In this document: piece after piece, positions 2,054-31,244 of the stretch
Position numbering within the stretch: position 1 is the first letter of the stretch
Layout of the letters: every line of letters begins with the position of its first letter
IMG/VR virus record: IMGVR_UViG_3300049855_000248
Coordinates: 1-40,222 of that record
DNA: 40,222 bases
DNA from: a virus
Direction: 5' to 3' (one strand)
Notes under the pieces: model-generated
Databases searched by the model: none
Told to the model about the DNA's origin: nothing
What the model saw: only the letters and a program-made list of their open reading frames with translations
Translations under genes and position numbers: made by a program

Positions 2054-3541
2054 CTATAAATTATCTGTCCATCCGTAGACTGCAATACTCGAGCTGGCAC
2101 CAGTGCCGTGCCAATAAATATTTGTGCTTTCAAGCACCATCTCAACAACTTGGCAATTTGGATTGGCAATAAGTGCCATTATGAAACCATGTGTTTCTAT
2201 AGTTGTATCACCCCATCCTATATCGTTTGGCATCACGTGTGTATTACTAAAATTAGCGTTAGAATATATGACTTGTATTTTATAAGCGGTGGGTGGGACA
2301 TAGTTTGCTACTGCTACGGGAACAATCGACCCACTATTACCACTTCCCATAATAATTTTATTGACAGGATTTGTACCACAAACATAAACCGCTTCATTAC
2401 CATACTGTAGGCTGCGATAAAGATTAGAGGAACCGTTATTTCTTATTGCGCCAACCCTTGCTTTATAAGTATACCCAACTGGCATAGTTGGCGATGTTGC
2501 GGATGTAGATAATAGACTTGATACGGTGCTGCCGTTATAAATGATCCAGACATTATACCACGTATCGGCCGCCTCTGATCCCGTATCAAGACCACCAGCT
2601 CCGGATGTTGTAATATTATTAGAAACGTTAACAGCATTTGCCACATAAACAAGACCGCTACCATTTGAAAGTGCTATCTGATTAATTGTAATGGTAGTAT
2701 TCGTATCACTTGTTACTTGAATTTTAAGCCCAGATGCGCCAGCGGCATATCCTCCTGTAAAAGCATTTGCAACATTGCCAGCTATCTTTTGAATAGCTCC
2801 TAAAATGGAATCGCTAGGACTAACCACTCCTGCGCCAGCAGTATATCCAGTTAAGACTTTGCTGATTACTGCGCTGTTTGTAAGTGTGGTTACGCCATCA
2901 ATTCCAGACGTAGCCTCTCCTGTTAAGGACATAATACCACTCGCGCCCGCAAGAAGGGAAAATGATAAATTTGTCACGCCAATATCAATGGGGGCTGCTG
3001 TTGTAAGTATCCAAGCGGTTGCGCCGTTGGTCGTGCCGAAAGCCACTGGAATTGTGGTGCCAGGTTCTACCTCATCCGTTCCGTCAAAATCTGTTGCACG
3101 CGTCCATGATCCGACCTGTTGTTCATATATACCATTTTCAGAAGCAGTGCTTTGGTTCTTAACAAGAATGCGCTGGCCAGCTATACCGGTTCCGCCATCA
3201 ATATTTTGCAACCCCGACAAAGTAATATTTGCCGTAGTGGCGTATTCTACAGGATCTTTAAAAGCAAATTCTTTGTTTGCCAGTTGCTGTATAAGCAGTT
3301 GCAAGTTCGTCTTAAGAGTTGCTGTATTATTGTCATCCAGAACATCCGCGCCCGTGATATCCTCTACAAGTTGCGTAAGTGCGTTGACAACAAAAGCGCT
3401 TTGCCGCATTGCTTTATTTACAAGTGCCGATCGTGCGATGCCGGGTTGATTTCCAAGGTTGCGCCGTGCATCCGCGCTATATTGGGCTTGTGTTAATATG
3501 TTTGTAGCGGTATCGCCAAACTTCAATATTTCATTAACCAT
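2054..3541 (-). CDS. Long tail fibre protein
   Basis: This 495-residue protein begins MVNEILKFGDTATNILTQAQ, a form typical of phage tail fibres that bind the baseplate through the N-terminus. Residues 30-100 are helical. Residues 100-200 contain LVKNQSTASENGIYE and TRATDFDGTDEVEPG, a module common in tail fibres. The C-terminal third has the GLDTGSEAADTWYNVW domain shared with the gene at 1-717 and ends in IYWHG...IAVYGWTDNL, a receptor-binding type tip. It follows DUF2612 in the late operon, the usual fibre position. Fibre assignment is firm; the receptor is unknown. Confidence 0.85.
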   Translation of the reverse strand: MVNEILKFGDTATNILTQAQYSADARRNLGNQPGIARSALVNKAMRQSAFVVNALTQLVEDITGADVLDDNNTATLKTNLQLLIQQLANKEFAFKDPVEYATTANITLSGLQNIDGGTGIAGQRILVKNQSTASENGIYEQQVGSWTRATDFDGTDEVEPGTTIPVAFGTTNGATAWILTTAAPIDIGVTNLSFSLLAGASGIMSLTGEATSGIDGVTTLTNSAVISKVLTGYTAGAGVVSPSDSILGAIQKIAGNVANAFTGGYAAGASGLKIQVTSDTNTTITINQIALSNGSGLVYVANAVNVSNNITTSGAGGLDTGSEAADTWYNVWIIYNGSTVSSLLSTSATSPTMPVGYTYKARVGAIRNNGSSNLYRSLQYGNEAVYVCGTNPVNKIIMGSGNSGSIVPVAVANYVPPTAYKIQVIYSNANFSNTHVMPNDIGWGDTTIETHGFIMALIANPNCQVVEMVLESTNIYWHGTGASSSIAVYGWTDNL

Positions 3542-5761: not shown

Positions 5762-6417
5762 TAATTGGGCGCTCCTGTATTACCACCACCATTCTGGACA
5801 CCAGAATGTGTATGTGTCTTTAAACTTATTGTACCAGCAAGTGAGTCTCCTGCAACATTTAAATCGCCCGTCATTTCAACAAGGGGGGCGTCAAGTATTA
5901 TCTTACTACCTGATTTTAACTTTATCTCGCCAGAGGCGTTAATCTCAATAAATGCGGCCCCTGCATTGTTGCGCAACTGGACGCTATTGCTACTAATATT
6001 TGCAATCTTTGTGGCTTGGCTTTTGATGCCGGCTATTGCGAAACCATCAGATAAATCATGCATTCTTGCTTCTGCTTGTTTGCCTATTCCGCCACTCTGC
6101 CACCAAGTATCAATACACCTTGACGCAAATATGACGAGCACTTCATCGCCATCCTCTATTGGGAAGGTAAGGCTAAAACCACCAGCAGAAGGGAATACTA
6201 TAGGAACGTCAACAAGTACTGGAAGGTTAACATTCGCTACATTTCCATTCTCATCACTTACCGCACCTTGTATAGCAGGCTGCGCTGATATAGTATTGGC
6301 CTCAAGATTAACTGCACTTACAATACATGGTAAAGCAGTCCATATTGAGGCCGCCCTGTCATCCATAGCAAGCCTCAGTGACTCCTCGCTATCGTTTAAA
6401 TATTCCCTTCTATCCAT
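5761..6417 (-). CDS. Baseplate central spike protein, Gp138 N-terminal (OB-fold) type
   Basis: I place the start at ATG 6417 because GGGTGG lies just upstream; a TTG at 6429 is the alternative. The 218-residue protein has an N-terminal Gp138/gpV-like OB domain (LPCIVSAVNLEANTISAQPA, VLVDVPIVFPSAGG, IEDGDEVLVIFASRCIDTWW). A repetitive beta region follows, and the C-terminal tip reads KTHTHSGVQNGGGNTGAPN. The closely spaced histidines recall the metal-binding HxH apex of P2 gpV-type spikes. It would form the membrane-puncturing trimer under the hub. Confidence 0.88.
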   Translation of the reverse strand: MDRREYLNDSEESLRLAMDDRAASIWTALPCIVSAVNLEANTISAQPAIQGAVSDENGNVANVNLPVLVDVPIVFPSAGGFSLTFPIEDGDEVLVIFASRCIDTWWQSGGIGKQAEARMHDLSDGFAIAGIKSQATKIANISSNSVQLRNNAGAAFIEINASGEIKLKSGSKIILDAPLVEMTGDLNVAGDSLAGTISLKTHTHSGVQNGGGNTGAPN

Positions 6418-6432
6418 ATAACCACCCAATCT

Positions 6433-7350
6433 TTATGTTTTCTTAACACTCTTCTTCGGCGGCTGTGTCGCATCTACGTCAAGACATACAATGTTACTAT
6501 ACCATTCGTTTGCATGTGTATCTCCAACGTGTTCCACCGCTAATAGTCTATAGAACCCATCCGCCGCCGTTGCGGTTAGATTCTTTTTCTTCCCATCGCC
6601 CTCATCAGTTTGTTTCTGCTCTGTCACATCTTCTTCGTTTATCTTTACTTTGCTGGCGATCTTAAGCATGGGGTTAAGTAGGCATTTTGCCTTAATACCT
6701 TCCGTTGTTTGTTCGGCACTACCTATAAGTCCGCTTGAACTATTAAGGACAACCGCTTGATTTGGAAGCACTTCTGTCAAGCTAACAAATTGAACCTTCC
6801 CGTCTTGTATACTCCATGTTGTGCCTGTTGTTTTTGCCGATTGCCTTAAATAATCTCTACTCATTCCATACATGACTTTACCGCGCGCTAACTTTTCCGT
6901 TCCAAGGGAAGGAATATTGCCCGTCGATATACCGTTATTCTTCATATTGTTAATCGCAGCGTTTACTTGATCGTTCTGCGTGGAACCTGCGGCAAGCGTT
7001 GTATTTGTGATAGAGTAGTTGTAGGCCTTATCACCATCACCGGCATAAATCATAATGAAGGAATCAACACCATTTTCCTTTCCTTTAGATATGCGCTTGA
7101 CATTCCCTTTAAAAATAAGCGCAATATTTTCCTCGTAACCCGCCTCTAAAGTGACTTGTGTAAATTCCTTCTTAATACGATTCGCCGTATCGTCTGCAAG
7201 ATTCCATACCTGTATTTCTGCCGCGTTTGGTGTTTGCGCATCCGTTTTCTTGACACTAAACTTGATGCGTAGATTCGACAGGTCAAGACCATTCCCTGCA
7301 TCATCCGCTATAATTAGCCTGCATTTCCTTAAATATTGACGGGCGCTCAT
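6433..7350 (-). CDS. Baseplate hub protein (gp27/gp44-like)
   Basis: This 305-residue protein begins MSARQYLRKCRLIIADDAGN and continues LRIKFSVKKTDAQTPNAAEI and VWNLADDTANRIKKEFTQV, a signature of hub proteins in simple myophages. It encodes beta domains that form the trimeric hub on which the spike sits. The C-terminal part includes a Lys-rich segment (KQTDEGDGKKKNLTATA) and DGFYRLLAVEHVGDTHANEW. The gene lies between the baseplate plug and spike genes, overlapping the plug gene by 4 bases. Confidence 0.85.
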   Translation of the reverse strand: MSARQYLRKCRLIIADDAGNGLDLSNLRIKFSVKKTDAQTPNAAEIQVWNLADDTANRIKKEFTQVTLEAGYEENIALIFKGNVKRISKGKENGVDSFIMIYAGDGDKAYNYSITNTTLAAGSTQNDQVNAAINNMKNNGISTGNIPSLGTEKLARGKVMYGMSRDYLRQSAKTTGTTWSIQDGKVQFVSLTEVLPNQAVVLNSSSGLIGSAEQTTEGIKAKCLLNPMLKIASKVKINEEDVTEQKQTDEGDGKKKNLTATAADGFYRLLAVEHVGDTHANEWYSNIVCLDVDATQPPKKSVKKT

Positions 7351-7670
7351 TGGGCCTCCTCCGTCACAAAATAAAGGAAAGATTCAACACCAAGGTTATC
7401 AAGCGTTGGCACAGCAGTTTCATCACTATTAGTTAACACTACAAGCGATCCACCAATGCCAAGATATTCATATTGGCCAAGAAGATCGACTCCTGTCACA
7501 AGGGGGGTATTATGCAATATTGGCTGGTTTGTTATGGAGTCATCTATATCAATAAACCACCCGCCTTCAATGGCATCGTTCCATCTACAAGTTACAATGT
7601 ATTCTTTCCCTACTAATTCGATAGTGAGGCGTTGCGGTATATTGGAGAGTGGAATTGTATAAACTGCCAT
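7347..7670 (-). CDS. Baseplate plug protein, DUF6983-like
   Basis: This 107-residue protein (MAVYTIPLSNIPQRLTIELVG, WNDAIEGGWFIDIDD, YLGIGGSLVVLTNS, YFVTEEAQ) matches the small plug-type baseplate proteins described for minimal myophages such as cyanophage Pam3. In those particles the plug occupies the hub near the tape-measure end. It overlaps the hub gene by 4 bases and touches the Dit-like gene. The family call is from recalled sequence pattern and gene order. Confidence 0.78.
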   Translation of the reverse strand: MAVYTIPLSNIPQRLTIELVGKEYIVTCRWNDAIEGGWFIDIDDSITNQPILHNTPLVTGVDLLGQYEYLGIGGSLVVLTNSDETAVPTLDNLGVESFLYFVTEEAQ

Positions 7671-8242
7671 TAACTACCTCTCACTATTTTTCTGCCAGTC
7701 ATATTACTCAATGAGCTATCGTCTTTTGCTGATATAGTACTAGTCTTATCAACAGCTTTCTTAACGCCAACATTCTGCGTCGCTCCTGTTTTTGCTGGCG
7801 TCTTCTGCCTTGCACGTGGTGGTACAGTCGTGACCTCAACATCCACAATATTTATTTCTGTTAAAGTTGCCGTAATAGATAAGCAGTTTTCAGTTGATGA
7901 ATCAGTAGTTTGCGACAAACTCTTGAATAACATGTTCTTGTATTTTCTTTTTCCTGTTACAACGTCGAAAGGCTCCCTTGACGCCTGCAACTCTAATAAA
8001 TCTTTGTAAGTTTCTGTTAGTGGTTTCGTGTTACTATCCCACATAGCGCGTATGGTAACTTCTGAAGGATTCTTATACGCATGATCGCTAACATCAGCAC
8101 CATTTTGCACCGGATGTTTTGTTATCTCAAGTGTATCCTCTGCGCTTTCCTCAATTGTTACGGTTGCCTCTATACCTCCAATGCTACGTCTTGGCCTTAT
8201 AAGTACTGAAGTAAACGGCGCTGATAAGAAGTTGAATGTCAT
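7670..8242 (-). CDS. Dit-like distal tail / baseplate ring protein
   Basis: The 190-residue product has an N-terminal beta domain of the Dit-like phage tail type. Its core reads IEATVTIEESAEDTLEITKH, DVSDHAYKNPSEVTIRAMW, ELQASREPFDVVTGKRKYKN and a closing ITATLTEINIVDVEV. The C-terminal 50 residues are low-complexity and basic (PPRARQKTPAKTG). Proteins of this type cap the tube end and join it to the hub. It directly follows the tape-measure gene, overlapping by 4 bases, as expected. Confidence 0.82.
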   Translation of the reverse strand: MTFNFLSAPFTSVLIRPRRSIGGIEATVTIEESAEDTLEITKHPVQNGADVSDHAYKNPSEVTIRAMWDSNTKPLTETYKDLLELQASREPFDVVTGKRKYKNMLFKSLSQTTDSSTENCLSITATLTEINIVDVEVTTVPPRARQKTPAKTGATQNVGVKKAVDKTSTISAKDDSSLSNMTGRKIVRGS

Positions 8243-9744
8243 CTTGCAGCCCCCTTCATATTGCGCGCCATATCCGCATTAACTTGACTCTGCGCATTGG
8301 TTACACTTCTTGCCGTAGCGTTCGGGTCGGCATTGCCTATTACGTTTATTTCTGTCTTTTGCGTAATATTCTGTTGCGGTGCTGTAGCAGAAGATAGGTA
8401 AGAGGGCGCCAATCCTGTTGCGGGTGCCCCAATTCTATTAACATTAACGGCAACATTCTTTCCGTCTTCACCGAAGAAATCAGATATTGAGCCGCCAACC
8501 TTCTTTACAATATCCCACGCGCCTTTCATCTTATCAATGAAGCGACCAACTACGCCAAATACTTTGTCGAATGCACTAGAGAATGATCCATATAATACAC
8601 TTGCGATATTGCCAATCTGAATAAGGAAGCTGCCAAATAATCCTAATACAGGTTTTATAACGGCCCACATTATACTAAATACGCTACTTACTACATCAGC
8701 AAATTTAATAAATGCTGTCCAGTCTAAAGCAGAACCGGCCCCCCTTTTGAAAGCCATAAGATCATCTACCAATAATGCAAAAGCTACCCCTAGGCCTAAT
8801 ATAATCCCAACAGGGGAGCGCATAAATACAATATTCAGCACTTTCCATGCTGCAATAACCGCCAAGATACGAGTAACCCACCCACCAGTGGCATCATCCG
8901 CCTTCTTTACAATATCAATAACGGCACCCATAGTATTAACCACAGCAAGAAGAACTTCTGATAATATACCCGCTATTTTCAAGAGGATTTCCATCATAGG
9001 CTCAAATGCCCGCATGATATTTGGCATATTGTCGACAAGTTTACGCCTAAAATTATCCATGCCAGCGGTAACATTGGGAAGAAGCTTACTCACAATCGCC
9101 TTAAATGTTACACTAAAGACGGCCTTTGTGCGGTCAAGAGCATCTACAAACAATCCTGCATCCTTTGCCGCTTGGTTCGCATCAACGCCGGCCCCCTGAT
9201 ATAGCTTGCGGTATTCCTCCCTTAGTCCTGATATATCGGATGTCATGACCTCTATCATGGTAGGGTCAATACCTAACCTTGATAATATGGCCATTTGCTG
9301 GCCCTTCTCCATATCTTTTATTTTATCAGCTATTTCGCCCATAAGGATTGTAGATGATTTCAAATCACCATTGGCATCCTTGACGCTTATGCCAAGTTTC
9401 TCAAATATCATCTTAGAGCGGCCTATGCCTGTTGCTGCAAGGCCAGCCTGTATAGATAATCCCTCCAATGATGAATTCGCCGCCTCAACTGAAGACCCCA
9501 TTATTTGGGCAGCATATCCGAATTCTTCTATTTCATTTACTGGTGTATCGATACGATTACTTAAATCGTTTAATTTATCCATCTGGTGAGCAACAGAATT
9601 AAACGCTTGCACAATGGCAGCGCCGCCCAATGCTATTAGACCTTGCTTTACTCTTGATATGCCGTTATTAAAATTATTGAGGCTTTTATCGTCAACTTTA
9701 AACCCAATTCCTACCAAGAACTCTTTGATAACATCGCCTTTCAT
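8239..9744 (-). CDS. Tail tape-measure protein
   Basis: This 501-residue protein lies between the tail chaperone and baseplate genes. The N-terminal half is helical (NFNNGISRVKQGLIALGGA, MDKLNDLSNRIDTPVNEIE). Several hydrophobic segments follow around residues 250-400 (ILLKIAGILSEVLLAVVNTM, VFSIMWAVIKPVLGLFGSF). It ends in a Gln/Asn/Ala-rich tail. Tape-measure proteins set tail length and line the tube; at this size the tail should be short for a myophage. Its start overlaps the end of the frameshifted chaperone frame (stop at 9741). No lysozyme or peptidase motif is seen. Confidence 0.92.
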   Translation of the reverse strand: MKGDVIKEFLVGIGFKVDDKSLNNFNNGISRVKQGLIALGGAAIVQAFNSVAHQMDKLNDLSNRIDTPVNEIEEFGYAAQIMGSSVEAANSSLEGLSIQAGLAATGIGRSKMIFEKLGISVKDANGDLKSSTILMGEIADKIKDMEKGQQMAILSRLGIDPTMIEVMTSDISGLREEYRKLYQGAGVDANQAAKDAGLFVDALDRTKAVFSVTFKAIVSKLLPNVTAGMDNFRRKLVDNMPNIMRAFEPMMEILLKIAGILSEVLLAVVNTMGAVIDIVKKADDATGGWVTRILAVIAAWKVLNIVFMRSPVGIILGLGVAFALLVDDLMAFKRGAGSALDWTAFIKFADVVSSVFSIMWAVIKPVLGLFGSFLIQIGNIASVLYGSFSSAFDKVFGVVGRFIDKMKGAWDIVKKVGGSISDFFGEDGKNVAVNVNRIGAPATGLAPSYLSSATAPQQNITQKTEINVIGNADPNATARSVTNAQSQVNADMARNMKGAAR

Positions 9745-9989
9745 TCCATGGCCTCCCTATAACGTGCCTCATTCTCATACTGGACATCAAGGGCATCATT
9801 CATCAGCGCAATGTCCATAATGTCGAGAGTTCCATCTTTAAGACTTTCGAACTTACATAATCCTTTAATGACTGGACGCATTACCCAATCTTCACCATTT
9901 GGCAATGAAACAAAATAATCAGGACTTATTTCGTTGCCCCTCTTATCTACTACGCCCCTGTGCCTGAGGTTGGGTAAAGGGCGCTGGTA
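9741..9989 (-). CDS. -1 frameshift extension of the tail assembly chaperone (GT-type part)
   Basis: The frame one base back from the chaperone gene has no stop from 9989 to TGA at 9741. It encodes about 82 residues (YQRPLPNLRHRGVVDKRG... ending NEARYREAME). It has no ATG with a good ribosome site at its beginning and fills what would otherwise be a 205-base gap before the tape measure. A shift at the slippery heptamer 9989-9995 would give a fusion of about 218 residues, the G/GT arrangement known in many tailed phages. The open frame is directly visible; the shift itself is inferred. Confidence 0.72.
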   Translation of the reverse strand, partial: YQRPLPNLRHRGVVDKRGNEISPDYFVSLPNGEDWVMRPVIKGLCKFESLKDGTLDIMDIALMNDALDVQYENEARYREAME

Positions 9990-10396
9990 AAATTTTTAAA
10001 ATTACACATCACCGCCTCCCACATCAGCCTAAGTATGGATACCACATTATCAATGTCTTGAAACATTATAGCTTTGCCGCCAGACGATACCACAGGAGCC
10101 CATCCTCCGCCTGCTTGCTTTCTACTAACAGAAGATAGAAGCTCAAATAATATGTAGTTGAATTCATCATCACTAAGCTTCGAGAGTGCGGCCGCACCCT
10201 TTGCCGCCATTTCTAAATAGTCCTCACCTTTACTATCTTTAGAAACAGTTTTGACAAGGGGTGCTATTTCCGAAAGTATCGGTGTCAACCTTCTTGCAAC
10301 ATGAATCTGATTCAATACTGGAAGCTTACTAAATTTATATTCAGCACCAGCGACATTAATGCTTTCTTGTGTCATGTTATATCTCCGGTGTTCCAA
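9950..10396 (-). CDS. Tail assembly chaperone (G-type, unshifted product)
   Basis: This 148-residue protein sits between the tube and tape-measure genes, the invariable position of tail assembly chaperones. It is mostly helical (LNQIHVARRLTPILSEIAPL, KAIMFQDIDNVVSILRLMWE) and ends FTSALYPTSGTGA. The first 20 bases overlap the end of the tube gene. Chaperones of this kind coat the tape measure during tube polymerisation. A second product is expected by -1 frameshift near codon 136; see the extension entry. Confidence 0.85.
   Translation of the reverse strand: MEHRRYNMTQESINVAGAEYKFSKLPVLNQIHVARRLTPILSEIAPLVKTVSKDSKGEDYLEMAAKGAAALSKLSDDEFNYILFELLSSVSRKQAGGGWAPVVSSGGKAIMFQDIDNVVSILRLMWEAVMCNFKNFTSALYPTSGTGA
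9989..9995 (-). promoter_or_regulatory. Slippery heptamer for -1 ribosomal frameshift
   Basis: On the minus strand the bases read A AAT TTT in the chaperone frame, which matches the canonical X XXY YYZ form. Slippage would re-pair the two codons as AAA TTT. In the -1 frame a TAA stop lies just upstream of this point, so the shift can only occur here or later. The zero frame ends about 14 codons downstream. Together these constraints make this the most likely shift site. Confidence 0.7.
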
Positions 10397-10829
10397 CGCC
10401 TAGAATCGTATTTGTGCCAATGGCATCAAATGACCACTCCATCATGCCACCTTCTTTTGCGTATGTGATGGTTGGGCGCTTTTTAAATGCCACTCCTGAT
10501 AATGTAATAATATCGCCACGAGATACATCATTGATAACAATAACGTTGCTTCCATGCGTCGCACTTGACGCCGTTTGCAAGTTGTACATTGTTTGCAATT
10601 GTGCATTGGTTGGCGATGTCTTAAGTAGCCTTACAGTTACTGCGCTAGATTCATCAGCAACAAGCGAATGCATACCGGCACCATCAGAGCCTATCGTCAT
10701 GATATTCTTATCATTGGTAGATTCGATAGTAATACCTTCTTCTGCTACTCCGGCCCCGTTTGCCAGATTAATAGAACCACCAAAACCATTTATCGATGCT
10801 GTAACATCTTTAAAACTATATGTAGCCAT
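10377..10829 (-). CDS. Tail tube protein, DUF3277 type
   Basis: This 150-residue protein (MATYSFKDVTASINGFGGSI, GAGMHSLVADESSAVTVRLL, GDIITLSGVAFKKRPTITYA) matches tail tube proteins that accompany DUF3383 sheaths. It lies immediately downstream of the sheath gene (14-base gap) with AAGGAGAAG before the start. The subunits stack as hexameric rings to form the inner DNA conduit. Its end overlaps the chaperone gene by 20 bases. Confidence 0.9.
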   Translation of the reverse strand: MATYSFKDVTASINGFGGSINLANGAGVAEEGITIESTNDKNIMTIGSDGAGMHSLVADESSAVTVRLLKTSPTNAQLQTMYNLQTASSATHGSNVIVINDVSRGDIITLSGVAFKKRPTITYAKEGGMMEWSFDAIGTNTILGVGTPEI

Positions 10830-21339: not shown

Positions 21340-21463
21340 ATACCACCTTCTTTATATAGTTGCTATTATGCTGATTCCCACACAGCATCGCGTTAAAGTA
21401 TTCTTCAAAAGCAATGAATAAGAAATCATCGCCTATTTTATCCTTTAGTTTCTCGTAACTCAT
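21308..21463 (-). CDS. Small hypothetical protein upstream of terminase
   Basis: I choose ATG 21463 (MSYEKLKDKIGDDFLFIAFE), with AGGA about 10 bases upstream; this gives 51 residues. It overlaps the methyltransferase end by 26 bases and the small terminase start by about 32 bases. The helical, charged product (NYIKKVVYERYEREKRL) resembles no family I know. Tight coupling suggests a real late gene, but the size leaves doubt. Confidence 0.5.
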   Translation of the reverse strand: MSYEKLKDKIGDDFLFIAFEEYFNAMLCGNQHNSNYIKKVVYERYEREKRL

Positions 21464-22652
21464 TATAGGTTTGTCCTGTTGATTCAAGAGTTGCCTTCTT
21501 ACCAGCATAATTTTGCCAGCGGTTAATAATTACGTCACAGTATTTTTCATCTAATTCCATCATGAAACACTTGCGATTTGTTTTTTCACAGGCAATCAAA
21601 GTGCTTCCTGAGCCACCGAATCCGTCATAACAACTTCTAAATTCAAAATCTTTAAAAATATCAACAAATAAGCCCACAGGTTTTTGTGTTGGATGCACCC
21701 TAGTGGAACCCTCTGTTTTGTGGTCGCCCTTCCGACTCGCGCCATTCCATAACCACCGATACAATCTAGCAGCAGAATTATTTGAACACCACGCCAATTC
21801 TATATCCGCAAATTTCGTTTCACCATTCTCCTTATCCCACACTAGCCAGCACATTGACCGCTCCAAAAAATCAGTGAAGTAATTACCGCCCCATATTATG
21901 AAATCCTCAAAACCGTAACCGACACAAGTGTTATAGAAATCTCTTGCAGTATCTGTTGTATCATCGTTGAGAACCGGCGAATAGGCTTTTGCAGGTATTG
22001 GATCGTTACTTATCAAACTAGTAGTTCTAGAATTGCTCCCCCCTCCTACTTTATTATTTCTAACAATACTTATCCCATAAGGCGGATCAGTAAAAACCAT
22101 ATCAGCCTTTGCGCCATTCATCAGCTTTTCGACATCGTTCATCATTGTCGAATCACCGCACATAAGCTTATGTTCTCCAAGCAACCAAATATCACCACGC
22201 TTAGTTACGGTCTTTTCTGGCTCACTAGGGACTTCGTCTTCGTCAGTAAGTCCTACGAATTCTTCATCTAGTATACCAAACTCCTCTTTCTCAAATCCCC
22301 AATCAAGCAACTCGTCTTGTTCAAATAAATTTGCAAGCATGTCAAAGTCCCATTCGCCGGCGGTGTTCTTGTTAAGCCTAATAAGAAGCTCTTCTACCTC
22401 TTTTTCGGAAAGCAGGCGCTCTGGTACTCGCACATCTATCTCACTCTCTCCTGTAGACTTTAAATATTCGATTCTGGCATGCCCACCAATTATAACGTTG
22501 TCTTTGTTGACAATTACCGGATCAGCTACGCCGAATTTGTCTATAGACTTGCCAAGATCAGCCAGTCCTTTCTTTGTAAACCTACGCGGATTCTTACTAT
22601 GTGGCTTTAAATCATCTATCTTGCGCCTTTCTGCAAACCATTCTATGGCCAT
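21438..22652 (-). CDS. ParB-like nuclease domain fused to a DNA methyltransferase
   Basis: The start is ATG 22652, with GGGAG just upstream, giving 404 residues. Residues about 10-100 form a ParB/sulfiredoxin-like domain (LKPHSKNPRRFTKKGL, NVIIGGHARIEYLKS). Residues 155-390 form an amino-methyltransferase with DPPYG at 189-193, HPTQKP at 320-325 and FGGSGST at 345-351. DPPY before the FxGxG motif indicates the beta-class order (CcrM-like). It methylates adenine or cytosine N, probably to protect or mark phage DNA. It is the first gene of the late operon, next to terminase. Confidence 0.92.
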   Translation of the reverse strand: MAIEWFAERRKIDDLKPHSKNPRRFTKKGLADLGKSIDKFGVADPVIVNKDNVIIGGHARIEYLKSTGESEIDVRVPERLLSEKEVEELLIRLNKNTAGEWDFDMLANLFEQDELLDWGFEKEEFGILDEEFVGLTDEDEVPSEPEKTVTKRGDIWLLGEHKLMCGDSTMMNDVEKLMNGAKADMVFTDPPYGISIVRNNKVGGGSNSRTTSLISNDPIPAKAYSPVLNDDTTDTARDFYNTCVGYGFEDFIIWGGNYFTDFLERSMCWLVWDKENGETKFADIELAWCSNNSAARLYRWLWNGASRKGDHKTEGSTRVHPTQKPVGLFVDIFKDFEFRSCYDGFGGSGSTLIACEKTNRKCFMMELDEKYCDVIINRWQNYAGKKATLESTGQTYNELRETKG

Positions 22653-22685
22653 ATTTTCTCCCGTTAAGTGTTTTATAACTCCCGT

Positions 22686-22714
22686 AGTATACACCACATC
22701 GTTATATTAGGCAA
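22686..22714 (-). promoter_or_regulatory. Probable late promoter, leftward
   Basis: On the minus strand TTGCCT (22709-22714) and TATACT (22686-22691) are separated by 17 bases, a sigma70-like pair. It lies about 35 bases upstream of the methyltransferase start and could drive the long structural operon. A weak -35 fits activation by a phage factor, but no activator is identified. Confidence 0.45.
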
Positions 22715-22826: not shown

Positions 22827-23105
22827 ATGGCAGCTGATACTAATTATTCCACCTTAAATAGAACCCTTGAAGGTCCACCATCCAAAGCAATCGTTATAAC
22901 TCCTAACGATTCTACTGATATAATTCCAGACAAACCAATACGATATTTTATGGTTGGGGCCACTGGCGATCTTTCGGTAATATTACAAGACGACACAAAC
23001 CCCGTTACATTAACTGGTCTAATAGCTGGTATTCAATACTACTTCATGGTCAAGCGCATAAGAGCAACAAACACAACCGCAACTGGCATAATTGGGTTCT
23101 ATTAA
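22827..23105 (+). CDS. Head-spike base protein, RCAP_Rcc01079-like
   Basis: The start is ATG 22827, with GGAG about 9 bases upstream. The 92-residue product reads GPPSKAIVITPNDSTDIIPD, then PIRYFMVGATGDLSVILQDD, then VKRIRATNTTATGIIGFY. This matches the small spike-base family known from the Rhodobacter capsulatus gene transfer agent and many alphaproteobacterial phages (recalled pattern: AxxITPSDSTDL ... GxTGDL ... VTRVxATGTTA). In the GTA this protein attaches a fibre to head vertices. Its stop overlaps the next start (TAATG), as expected for a base-fibre pair. Confidence 0.75.
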   Translation: MAADTNYSTLNRTLEGPPSKAIVITPNDSTDIIPDKPIRYFMVGATGDLSVILQDDTNPVTLTGLIAGIQYYFMVKRIRATNTTATGIIGFY

Positions 23106-24277
23106 TGTTCTATAAAGGCGTCCCACATATGCACCAAGCGGCTGGCGCTATACAATCCGCGCCAGAACCACTTCCATTTATCTCTACTTGGAAGACAGAT
23201 AATCCAGGAGTGACTGCGTCAACACTGATAAAATTACCTACCGATCCTGCAGGAGTCTATAATGCAACTATCGACTGGGGTGATGGTAATCAATCAACTA
23301 TAACCCAATGGAATATCAATAATGTTCATACATATGCAGTTGCTGGTATATATACCGTAACTATTACTGGCATATTTACGGGATTTAACTTTTCTGGAGG
23401 TGGGGATAGAAGAAAGTTATTAAATATATCGCAATTTGGTATCCTAAGGCTAGGAGATGATGGCTATGGAAGATATTTTGAACGATGCAACAATCTTACA
23501 ATTACAGCAACCGATCCACTTGACCTAACTGGAATCACAACTTTATTCAAAGCTTTCGCATTTTGCTCATCGTTAACAGCAGCGCCAGGCGTTGCCATCA
23601 CGAACACCTCAAATATTATTGATTTTGGAAGTGCGTTTGAATCATGCCCTTTATTTAATGAGAATATTGGCAACTGGGATGTTTCTTCTGGTATTGAATT
23701 TTCAAATATGTTTTATGAATGCGCTAATTTCAATCAGAATCTAAATAATTGGAACGTTTCTTCTGCAACTAAAATAGATGGCATGTTTCTAGGTTGTCAT
23801 GTTTTTAATTCACCATTATCTAATTGGGATGTATCGAACGTTACTACTTTCGATAGCACCTTTGTAGAATGCTTTGCATTTAATCAACCTTTAGATATGT
23901 GGGATGTAGGCAATGGCAACAACTTTTATGCAATGTTTCTTGATTGCCATATTTTTGATCAATATTTAGGCTCATGGAATGTAAGTAATGGTACTCTATT
24001 TGGATTTATGTTTTATAATGCATATTTATTTAAGGGGGTTGATTTGGGAAACTGGAATATTACTGAAATGCAGAGTGCACAGTCAATGTTCCAGAATGTT
24101 ACTTTACCAACAGCAAATTACAATTCTATTTTGATAGGTTGGGCGGCTCAAGTTGTTGAAACTAATGTTTTATTCCATGGTGGCAATTCGCAATATTCTG
24201 CTGCTGCCGTCAGTGCGCGCTCAACTCTTGTTATTACATATACCTGGACAATAATAGATGGCGGCATTGCGCCATAA
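23105..24277 (+). CDS. Probable head-spike fibre with PKD-like and BspA/DUF285 repeats
   Basis: This 390-residue protein has an N-terminal linker, a PKD-like domain at about 52-90 (ATIDWGDGNQS, HTYAVAGIYTVTITG) and a DUF285/BspA surface-repeat domain at about 175-330. Six repeats begin at W191, W216, W241, W266, W291 and W317, an almost exact 25-residue period with consensus xWDVSxxTxFxxMFxxCxxF. No signal peptide is seen. The start overlaps the stop of the spike-base gene. DUF285 repeats are known from surface and adhesion proteins, so it is probably the receptor- or glycan-binding fibre of that spike. Adhesin function is inferred. Confidence 0.75.
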   Translation: MFYKGVPHMHQAAGAIQSAPEPLPFISTWKTDNPGVTASTLIKLPTDPAGVYNATIDWGDGNQSTITQWNINNVHTYAVAGIYTVTITGIFTGFNFSGGGDRRKLLNISQFGILRLGDDGYGRYFERCNNLTITATDPLDLTGITTLFKAFAFCSSLTAAPGVAITNTSNIIDFGSAFESCPLFNENIGNWDVSSGIEFSNMFYECANFNQNLNNWNVSSATKIDGMFLGCHVFNSPLSNWDVSNVTTFDSTFVECFAFNQPLDMWDVGNGNNFYAMFLDCHIFDQYLGSWNVSNGTLFGFMFYNAYLFKGVDLGNWNITEMQSAQSMFQNVTLPTANYNSILIGWAAQVVETNVLFHGGNSQYSAAAVSARSTLVITYTWTIIDGGIAP

Positions 24278-24317
24278 GTTTTACTCCTTGCCATTAATTA
24301 TAAAAGGAGTCAATGGT

Positions 24318-24506
24318 ATGGAAGACTATATAGCAACTGATATTGTTTACGTTGTTTCTCATAACGGAAATGATGTTTATCATTTCACCAAATTATTATC
24401 AGGTAATCAAATAACAACTGGCCTACCATTCATGCAGATTTTTTTGACGCCAGAAGAAGCAATTGCTGTATTTCATGATAATATTTCTTTAGAATCTGTA
24501 GAATAA
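24318..24506 (+). CDS. Small hypothetical protein of the spike cassette
   Basis: The start at ATG 24318 has a strong AAAGGAGT site; upstream in-frame codons lie within the spike fibre gene. The 62-residue product (MEDYIATDIVYVVSHNGND, PFMQIFLTPEEAIAVFHDN) has no signal peptide or membrane segment. It is the last gene of the cassette. A chaperone or structural accessory is possible, but no family is recognised. Confidence 0.6.
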   Translation: MEDYIATDIVYVVSHNGNDVYHFTKLLSGNQITTGLPFMQIFLTPEEAIAVFHDNISLESVE

Positions 24507-27552: not shown

Positions 27553-27854
27553 ACCCCCTCCTTATTTAAGTAAGCTATTTCTTCGTCTATCGAGTCAATT
27601 ACCGAGTTAGGGAAAACAACCCCGCGCTCTCTAAGCCATAGCAATCTGTCTTTAAATTCTTGTAAAGTTTTTTCAAGAAATCTATACTTGCCTTCCACAT
27701 TATAAAGCATATCTATTCGATACCCCCCTTCAATGGACTCATAACAATAAACATCACATCTCCTGATCGCTGAGTTTGCATATTCAGGATATTTCAGATT
27801 TTCACCACTTGACCACCTACAGTACGACATAACCTTCCCTATTATCTCTTTCAT
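27549..27854 (-). CDS. Hypothetical protein, accessory block
   Basis: I choose ATG 27854 (MKEIIGKVMSYCRWSSGENL), with GGTGG upstream; it lies within the last 38 bases of the preceding gene. The 101-residue product has a beta-rich middle (RRCDVYCYESIEGGYRIDML) and a helical C-terminus (EKTLQEFKDRLLWLRERGV). The stop overlaps the following start. No family is recognised. Confidence 0.67.
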   Translation of the reverse strand: MKEIIGKVMSYCRWSSGENLKYPEYANSAIRRCDVYCYESIEGGYRIDMLYNVEGKYRFLEKTLQEFKDRLLWLRERGVVFPNSVIDSIDEEIAYLNKEGV

Positions 27855-28155
27855 AAAAACCACCAACTAAACCCTGTACTGTTGTGCCGGTCTTATTAAT
27901 GCGAATAAGTCTTCCAGCCCAGTCGTCTTCGTCTTTATAAAAATTAAATTTAACACCAGCTATAACCTTCAGCTCAATATTTTCTTCCTCTCCTTCCAGA
28001 AGGAAGTTAACACTCCCACTTTCTGATGCCGTAAACCAGCATAAAGGCTCATCAAAATTCTTATGATCATCAGGAGTAATCGCAATAACTCTCTCTTTTA
28101 TGGTGAGTAGCTGATGGAGATACTTGAGATTATTAGCGCTAATTCTTCTACTCAT
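27817..28155 (-). CDS. Hypothetical protein, accessory block
   Basis: This 112-residue protein (MSRRISANNLKYLHQLLTIK, PLCWFTASESGSVNFLLEGE, LIRINKTGTTVQGLVGGFYE) appears beta-rich after an N-terminal helix. CTGGAGGG precedes the ATG, and the start overlaps the previous stop by 4 bases. No family is recognised. Confidence 0.67.
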   Translation of the reverse strand: MSRRISANNLKYLHQLLTIKERVIAITPDDHKNFDEPLCWFTASESGSVNFLLEGEEENIELKVIAGVKFNFYKDEDDWAGRLIRINKTGTTVQGLVGGFYERDNREGYVVL

Positions 28156-29738: not shown

Positions 29739-30089
29739 TTATTTCCAGATTATGTTATCAAAACCAAGGCAACCTTTAAGCAACTCCCTGTTGCTTTCGG
29801 TATCCGTAAATACCGCAAAGCTTAAGTCCGCCCCGAATAGGTTAGCCCCCATTATGTCCGCCTCCCTTAAGTCCGCCCCCATTAAATCCGCCTCACTTAA
29901 GTCCGCAAAGCGTAAGTCCGCCTCCCTTAAATTAGCCCCCATTATGTCCGCCTCGCTTAAGTATGCCCCGCCTAGGTCCGCCCCCATTAAATCCGCCTCC
30001 ATTAGGTCCGCCCTTGTCCCCTCACTTTTATTAGACTCGACCCACTTCTTATGCTCTGCCAATATCTTATCTAGTGTTTCTTGTTTCAT
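29739..30089 (-). CDS. Pentapeptide-repeat protein
   Basis: The 116-residue product has about fourteen A(D/N)Lxx pentapeptides between residues 26 and 100 (ADLMEADLMGADLGGAYLSE and on). They would form a right-handed quadrilateral beta helix. The DNA shows a matching 15-base periodicity. An N-terminal helix (MKQETLDKILAEHKKWVES) precedes it. Some family members mimic DNA and inhibit gyrase, but most have unknown roles. It follows AAGGAGC in a glycosyltransferase-led operon. Confidence 0.9.
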   Translation of the reverse strand: MKQETLDKILAEHKKWVESNKSEGTRADLMEADLMGADLGGAYLSEADIMGANLREADLRFADLSEADLMGADLREADIMGANLFGADLSFAVFTDTESNRELLKGCLGFDNIIWK

Positions 30090-30326: not shown

Positions 30327-31244
30327 TTACTTCTCCTCTTTAAATTTATAAGGCAACGGCCTCCACGGAGTTAATCCCATGATAGAACCTGCCGCAAAAA
30401 CAAGCTTGTTGATTCCCTTAATAGCAACAGAAAAAGCGGCTCTTTTTCCACCAATAATACACACAGGAGATATAACTATAAGAACGATCCCCATAAATAA
30501 CCTTTTAGCAACCTTTCCGGCCCTTTCTACAACAGCAGCTTTTCCTTCCCTGCGCATAATTCCATACATATTAACTGCCGCGCGCCAATAACTCCTCCAA
30601 ATATACGCTTTAAAAGTTTGTCTCTCTTTTGGCACTTCTTCGTATATATTCGCGTGTGCGCAGTAAATAATCCTCTCACCATTATCAATCGCACGAAGGA
30701 AAAAATCCGTATCTTCACCGCCCGTATAATTATAAGCCTCATCAAATCTTATGCGCAAAAAGACATCGCGATTTATCATGACATTATTTGTACATGCGCA
30801 ATCCATATCTTTCCCATTCTCTGGCCATTTCGGCTCTTTAATCCACAAATTACTATTACTATTACCACTCTTTATATAAGAGATATGCCCATGAAATATA
30901 TTAACGCGATCATATTTATTCTGCATTGAAAACAAATTCTCTAACCAATCTTTAGAAACCCACGTATCATCATCAATAAAGATAAGCCAATCTCTTTTGT
31001 TCTCTACACAGTAGTCAATTGCTTTATTCCTAGCATATGACAGCCCTATCTTTGGCTCCCAAAGATACAGAATTCTATCACTACATGATGCTGATTCTTG
31101 CAAAACTTCCTTGGTGTTCATTATAAGAATTACGTTACATTCTACATTATATGGCAACACCACTTTCTTTAAACTACTAAGGCATCTTTCAAGCATTTCA
31201 GGCCTTTTTCCTGCCGTGCAAATAGCTACTGTTGCTTTTATCAT
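30327..31244 (-). CDS. Glycosyltransferase family 2 (GT-A fold)
   Basis: This 305-residue protein begins with a GT2 fold (MIKATVAICTAGKRPEMLER). It has Asp-Asp-Asp at 91-93 (LIFIDDDTWV), the metal- and nucleotide-sugar-binding site. It also has a GGED motif at 175-178 (NYTGGEDTDFF) providing the likely catalytic acid. Hydrophobic residues at about 246-265 (LFMGIVLIVISPVCIIG) and a closing YKFKEEK suggest inner-membrane association. Phage-carried enzymes of this type often modify host surface glycans and block superinfection. It starts just after a 26-residue leader. Confidence 0.88.
   Translation of the reverse strand: MIKATVAICTAGKRPEMLERCLSSLKKVVLPYNVECNVILIMNTKEVLQESASCSDRILYLWEPKIGLSYARNKAIDYCVENKRDWLIFIDDDTWVSKDWLENLFSMQNKYDRVNIFHGHISYIKSGNSNSNLWIKEPKWPENGKDMDCACTNNVMINRDVFLRIRFDEAYNYTGGEDTDFFLRAIDNGERIIYCAHANIYEEVPKERQTFKAYIWRSYWRAAVNMYGIMRREGKAAVVERAGKVAKRLFMGIVLIVISPVCIIGGKRAAFSVAIKGINKLVFAAGSIMGLTPWRPLPYKFKEEK

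Follow-up and report, generated by a model that had tools for sequence, protein, structure and literature searches.

Organization of the cassette

The window, i.e. the whole stretch of DNA analysed, is a virus contig of 40222 bases. Three genes lie together on its plus strand, with genes on the minus strand flanking them on both sides (Table 1), and they form an inverted island, bounded by a methyltransferase gene on one side and the early region on the other, which does not adjoin the capsid gene of the phage. A reading of the sequence alone (hereafter, the sequence-only reading) had described this cassette as divergent from the structural genes and its first two genes as translationally coupled, and both points were confirmed: the stop codon of the spike-base gene (23103-23105) and the ATG of the fibre gene share position 23105 in a TAATG overlap (TATTAATG), in the gene order usual at other spike-base loci. 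The third small gene, also recognized in that reading, likely begins with the ATG at 24318, which follows AAAGGAG, whereas a longer frame from 24258 would overlap the fibre gene. It has a low GC content and no relative was found among the phage records; Rfam analysis of the cassette gave no match either.

Table 1. Features of the spike-base cassette and of other genes of the window discussed in the text.
Feature	Position	Strand	Remarks
Spike-base gene	22827-23105	+	RCAP_Rcc01079 family, 92 aa; fold predicted as a small jellyroll
Fibre gene	23105-24277	+	390 aa; ATG within the TAATG shared with the spike-base gene
N-terminal tail of the fibre (residues 1-19)	23105-23161	+	MFYKGVPHMHQAAGAIQSA; proposed anchor
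PKD-like domain (about residues 22-100)	23168-23404	+	PKD_4 match at residues 46-88
Six DUF285/BspA repeats (residues 182-332)	23648-24100	+	Proposed binding face
C-terminal small alpha/beta module	24095-24277	+	NYxxxLIGWxAQ...WTIxDGG; from alignments
Third cassette gene	24318-24506	+	62 aa; conserved in L021
Tail-fibre gene of the phage	2054-3541		Separate from the cassette
ParB_N + N6_N4 DNA methyltransferase fusion	21438-22697	-	Beside the terminase genes
Second spike-base-like gene (P0003)	27817-28155	-	Diverged; among small early genes; no fibre gene
Pentapeptide-repeat protein gene	29739-30089	-	Alr5209 family match
Glycosyltransferase-like gene	30327-31244	-	EPS/HpsE-type and PHROG glycosyltransferase matches

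The portal protein of the phage falls into the Phage_portal_3 family; further genes encode a cement protein of the E217/Pam3 type and a DUF3383 protein, DUF3383 being the contractile sheath family. Together with the baseplate hub, wedge and spike genes that were also present, this bears out the earlier description of a contractile-tailed phage. Comparison of the structural region with isolate phages yielded no close relative. The same three cassette genes were found in a related phage, L021, whose structural proteins are mostly about 60-90% identical to those of the window phage, although the large terminase reaches only 45%. All three cassette frames are open and are kept in L021 at 48-69% identity, the third gene product showing the lowest value (48%) and the fibre the highest (69%), and the L021 fibre has exactly one 25-residue repeat fewer. 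The ParB_N-methyltransferase fusion of the window was not found in L021 by blastp covering bases 1-40000 of 41973.

The 92-residue spike-base protein

The sequence-only reading had assigned the first gene to the spike-base family of RcGTA, and a profile search upheld this assignment: the protein matched NCBIfam NF048002 ('spike base protein, RCAP_Rcc01079 family') with 64.5 bits (E = 8e-18), well above the curated cut-off of 28 bits. Searching the solved structures by phmmer retrieved 6tb9 (E = 5e-4) and 8cjz (E = 1.5e-3). Given these E-values and the conservation of the cassette in L021, chance can be excluded. The predicted fold agreed with the profile, as an AlphaFold model built from 34 relatives (pLDDT 86.7; a monomer prediction only) displayed the small jellyroll of the solved spike bases, and Foldseek with this model retrieved only two structures at E < 0.001, namely the capsid spike bases of RcGTA (6tb9; TM-scores 0.68/0.74) and Carin-1 (8cjz; 0.67/0.70), at 1.8 Å. 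Carin-1, whose spike base is chain h of 8cjz, is a podophage of Cobetia marina, unlike the contractile-tailed phage of the window, and is likened to it by the base alone, through its fold and a weak sequence match. Among isolate phages the nearest bases are those of the RHph phages, with up to 43% identity.

PHROG_12296 and some GenBank records label the spike-base family as 'tail fiber protein', a label that conflicts with the position of both solved members on capsids. The glutamate by which Rcc01079 contacts the capsid is present in the 92-residue protein and in its L021 counterpart, but it was dropped as evidence since only 14 of 98 aligned bases carry E or D at this position, which is thus not a family-wide trait. 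Eight distant bases were also aligned, but the result was too heterogeneous for use as a search query. The product of the second spike-base-like gene, P0003, scored 23.6 bits against NF048002 (E = 4.8e-5), short of the cut-off of 28, with a profile comparison probability of 91%.

Domain architecture of the fibre

In the product of the coupled gene, an N-terminal tail precedes a PKD-like domain, after which come six 25-residue DUF285/BspA repeats and, last, a C-terminal domain, and the earlier identification of the PKD-like and repeat regions was corroborated. DUF285 (PF03382) matched with 155.8 bits against a cut-off of 25, and the repeats matched TIGR02167 with 31.8 bits (cut-off 30). A tryptophan recurs at residues 191, 216, 241, 266, 291 and 317, i.e. 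with a spacing of 25, 25, 25, 25 and 26. As PKD_4 (PF18911) scored 23.2 bits (E = 7e-5) and thus remained under its curated threshold of 27, we refer to this domain as PKD-like. The structure model of the fibre was of moderate quality (pLDDT 69), with residues 1-19 disordered, and a fold search using it returned no informative match.

BspA/DUF285 (PARCEL) surface proteins include copies from jumbo phages, namely PAU gp103, pir03 ORF 200 and LR756500. PAU gp103 resembles the window fibre in combining a PKD-like domain with DUF285, and LR756500 in addition shares the C-terminal module, which alignments revealed to be common to other PKD-DUF285 proteins. The loci examined in PAU and LR756500 yielded no spike base. 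Since jumbo phages and bacterial surface proteins alike show this domain set, the DUF285 tip was most likely borrowed from this pool.

The proposed N-terminal anchor

In RcGTA, the base pentamer sits on the capsid and anchors the fibre by residues 2-10 of the latter, I-A-L-G-L-G-L-G-L (PMC7296036), and the fibre binds capsular polysaccharide (PMC7296036, PMC10218006). We scored this alternating hydrophobic/glycine pattern, the star peptide, over the first 26 residues of the surveyed fibres by an ad hoc and crude scheme with a maximum of 9. RcGTA scored 9 and most survey fibres 7-9, whereas the window fibre reached 4 and that of L021 5, no better than internal sequence, half of the internal stretches reaching 6. 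The RcGTA-type star peptide is thus absent from both fibres by this scoring, and plainly so by eye. Instead, both share MFYKGVPxxxQAAxA at the N-terminus, 13 of the 19 residues aligned over positions 1-20 being identical. A search for the MFYKGVP codon pattern across viral contigs recovered only L021 and chance frames, and this anchor variant could not be traced beyond L021.

The sequence-only reading had proposed a head fibre as in RcGTA. As far as the base family and the coupled fibre gene are concerned this stands, but attachment exactly in the RcGTA manner is not supported for the fibres of the window and L021. With the star peptide missing, the fibre is not filed under the RcGTA anchor type and at best works like the RcGTA fibre.

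Spike-base loci in other phages

About 120 spike-base loci were surveyed, and a gene with a variable body often follows the base directly. When frames were counted as adjacent if they measured 150 aa or more and began between -5 and +15 nt relative to the base stop, 53 loci qualified (20 at -1, 7 at 0 and 5 at -4), a minority of these frames being terminase or connector genes rather than fibres. Bodies vary among the 39 clear fibres, LamG lectin, Ig-like, GDSL esterase and polysaccharide deacetylase domains being among those represented, and DUF285 occurs in three. Upstream neighbours were picked by eye from a list and serve as examples, not as a rate: just upstream of four tested bases lie major capsid genes of unrelated PHROG families, and other bases follow a head-tail adaptor or decoration gene. 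In Immutovirus the base comes after gp23. In a Sphingomonas prophage (L032:3084-5225), capsid, probable decoration and spike-base genes stand in a row with no fibre gene beside the base. A scan of genome contigs yielded one locus, and the TNTTATGII codon pattern gave no locus beyond those of the first protein scan.

With RcGTA (base Rcc01079, fibre Rcc01080) the window shares the base family, the fold and the order of base and fibre genes; RcapMu, RHph_Y60/TM3 and P8625 have directly coupled base and fibre genes. The fibre body is an SGNH hydrolase in the TM3 phages and a concanavalin-like lectin in P8625, with no type assigned in the rest, and DUF285 occurs in none; the RHph fibres have an MGLG-type anchor, which the window fibre lacks. 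By comparison with RcGTA, the window fibre has a PKD and DUF285 body, is devoid of the star peptide and belongs to a contractile-tailed phage.

A DUF285 fibre is likewise paired with a spike base in L010, an unrelated viral contig with a gene for a GroEL-like protein. The first residues of its 266-aa PKD and DUF285 fibre, MPIAIEIGN, come near the usual anchor. Phage DUF285 proteins were already known, as were spike-base cassettes whose fibres differ, but a literature search, confined to open-licence papers, did not find the two together. The earlier statement that no head spike with DUF285 repeats had been described held within these papers, whereas L010 makes it clear that the window phage is not unique. 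Between its base and fibre genes, L010 encodes a 1485-aa protein (6151-10608) in which a base-like stretch close to the N-terminus precedes numerous similar repeats resembling carbohydrate modules.

Candidate function and alternative explanations

Taken together, the cassette probably encodes a capsid-borne head spike of the RcGTA/Carin-1 kind into which a DUF285 tip has been swapped. Judging from family and fold, the 92-residue jellyroll would form the base on capsid pentamers, presumably at the head vertices, and would hold the coupled 390-residue protein by its N-terminal tail. The PKD-like spacer and the DUF285 solenoid would project and bind a ligand on the host surface, and this reversible, multivalent first contact would, by analogy with RcGTA, precede engagement of the tail. 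The DUF285 part would then be an interchangeable tip drawn from the abundant PKD-DUF285 surface proteins. RcGTA head spikes help capsule binding but are not essential (PMC10218006), and an analogous auxiliary role is likely here. The missing star peptide, the location away from the capsid gene and the pLDDT of the fibre model were counted against the head-spike reading.

The first of these, together with the frequency of DUF285 in bacterial surface proteins and its occurrence alone in many phages, would also suit a base on the head accompanied by a separate, merely coupled DUF285 gene, for example one for a secreted or surface protein of the infected host. However, the overlap and the position fit the usual base-fibre order, L021 keeps the pair, and L010 combines a base with a DUF285 fibre that has a near-standard start, which makes such a separate protein unlikely. 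It also seems quite unlikely that the cassette specifies a tail-borne adhesin, with the base family acting as an adaptor able to sit on tails too. Both solved bases are on capsids, several bases follow capsid genes and the phage has a tail-fibre gene of its own, even though PHROG_12296 and some GenBank entries speak of a tail fibre and in RcapMu the pair is located among the tail genes. If the cassette were the functionless, decaying remains of a head spike since lost, one might expect the inverted, isolated position, the low-GC third gene and the non-standard anchor seen here, but three open frames, their conservation in L021 and a change of exactly one repeat render this very improbable.

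Returning to the head spike, we raise tentatively, as a possibility we rather doubt, that in this phage group the fibre is held on the head base by another N-terminal module (MFYKGVPxxxQAAxA), to which the third gene product perhaps contributes, that a DUF285 solenoid varying in whole repeats has taken the place of the usual sugar-binding tip, and that P0003 may form or modify mixed spikes.

On the favoured reading, the RcGTA-type head spike is a widespread platform with interchangeable tips, the DUF285 repeat among them, on many tailed phages, and adhesion from the head would be a candidate job for phage DUF285 proteins, whose role has so far been without explanation.

Two further genes were noted in the window. 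The pentapeptide-repeat protein matched the Alr5209 family with 81.6 bits, below the cut-off of 125, and the glycosyltransferase-like product possibly modifies host surface sugars or phage DNA.
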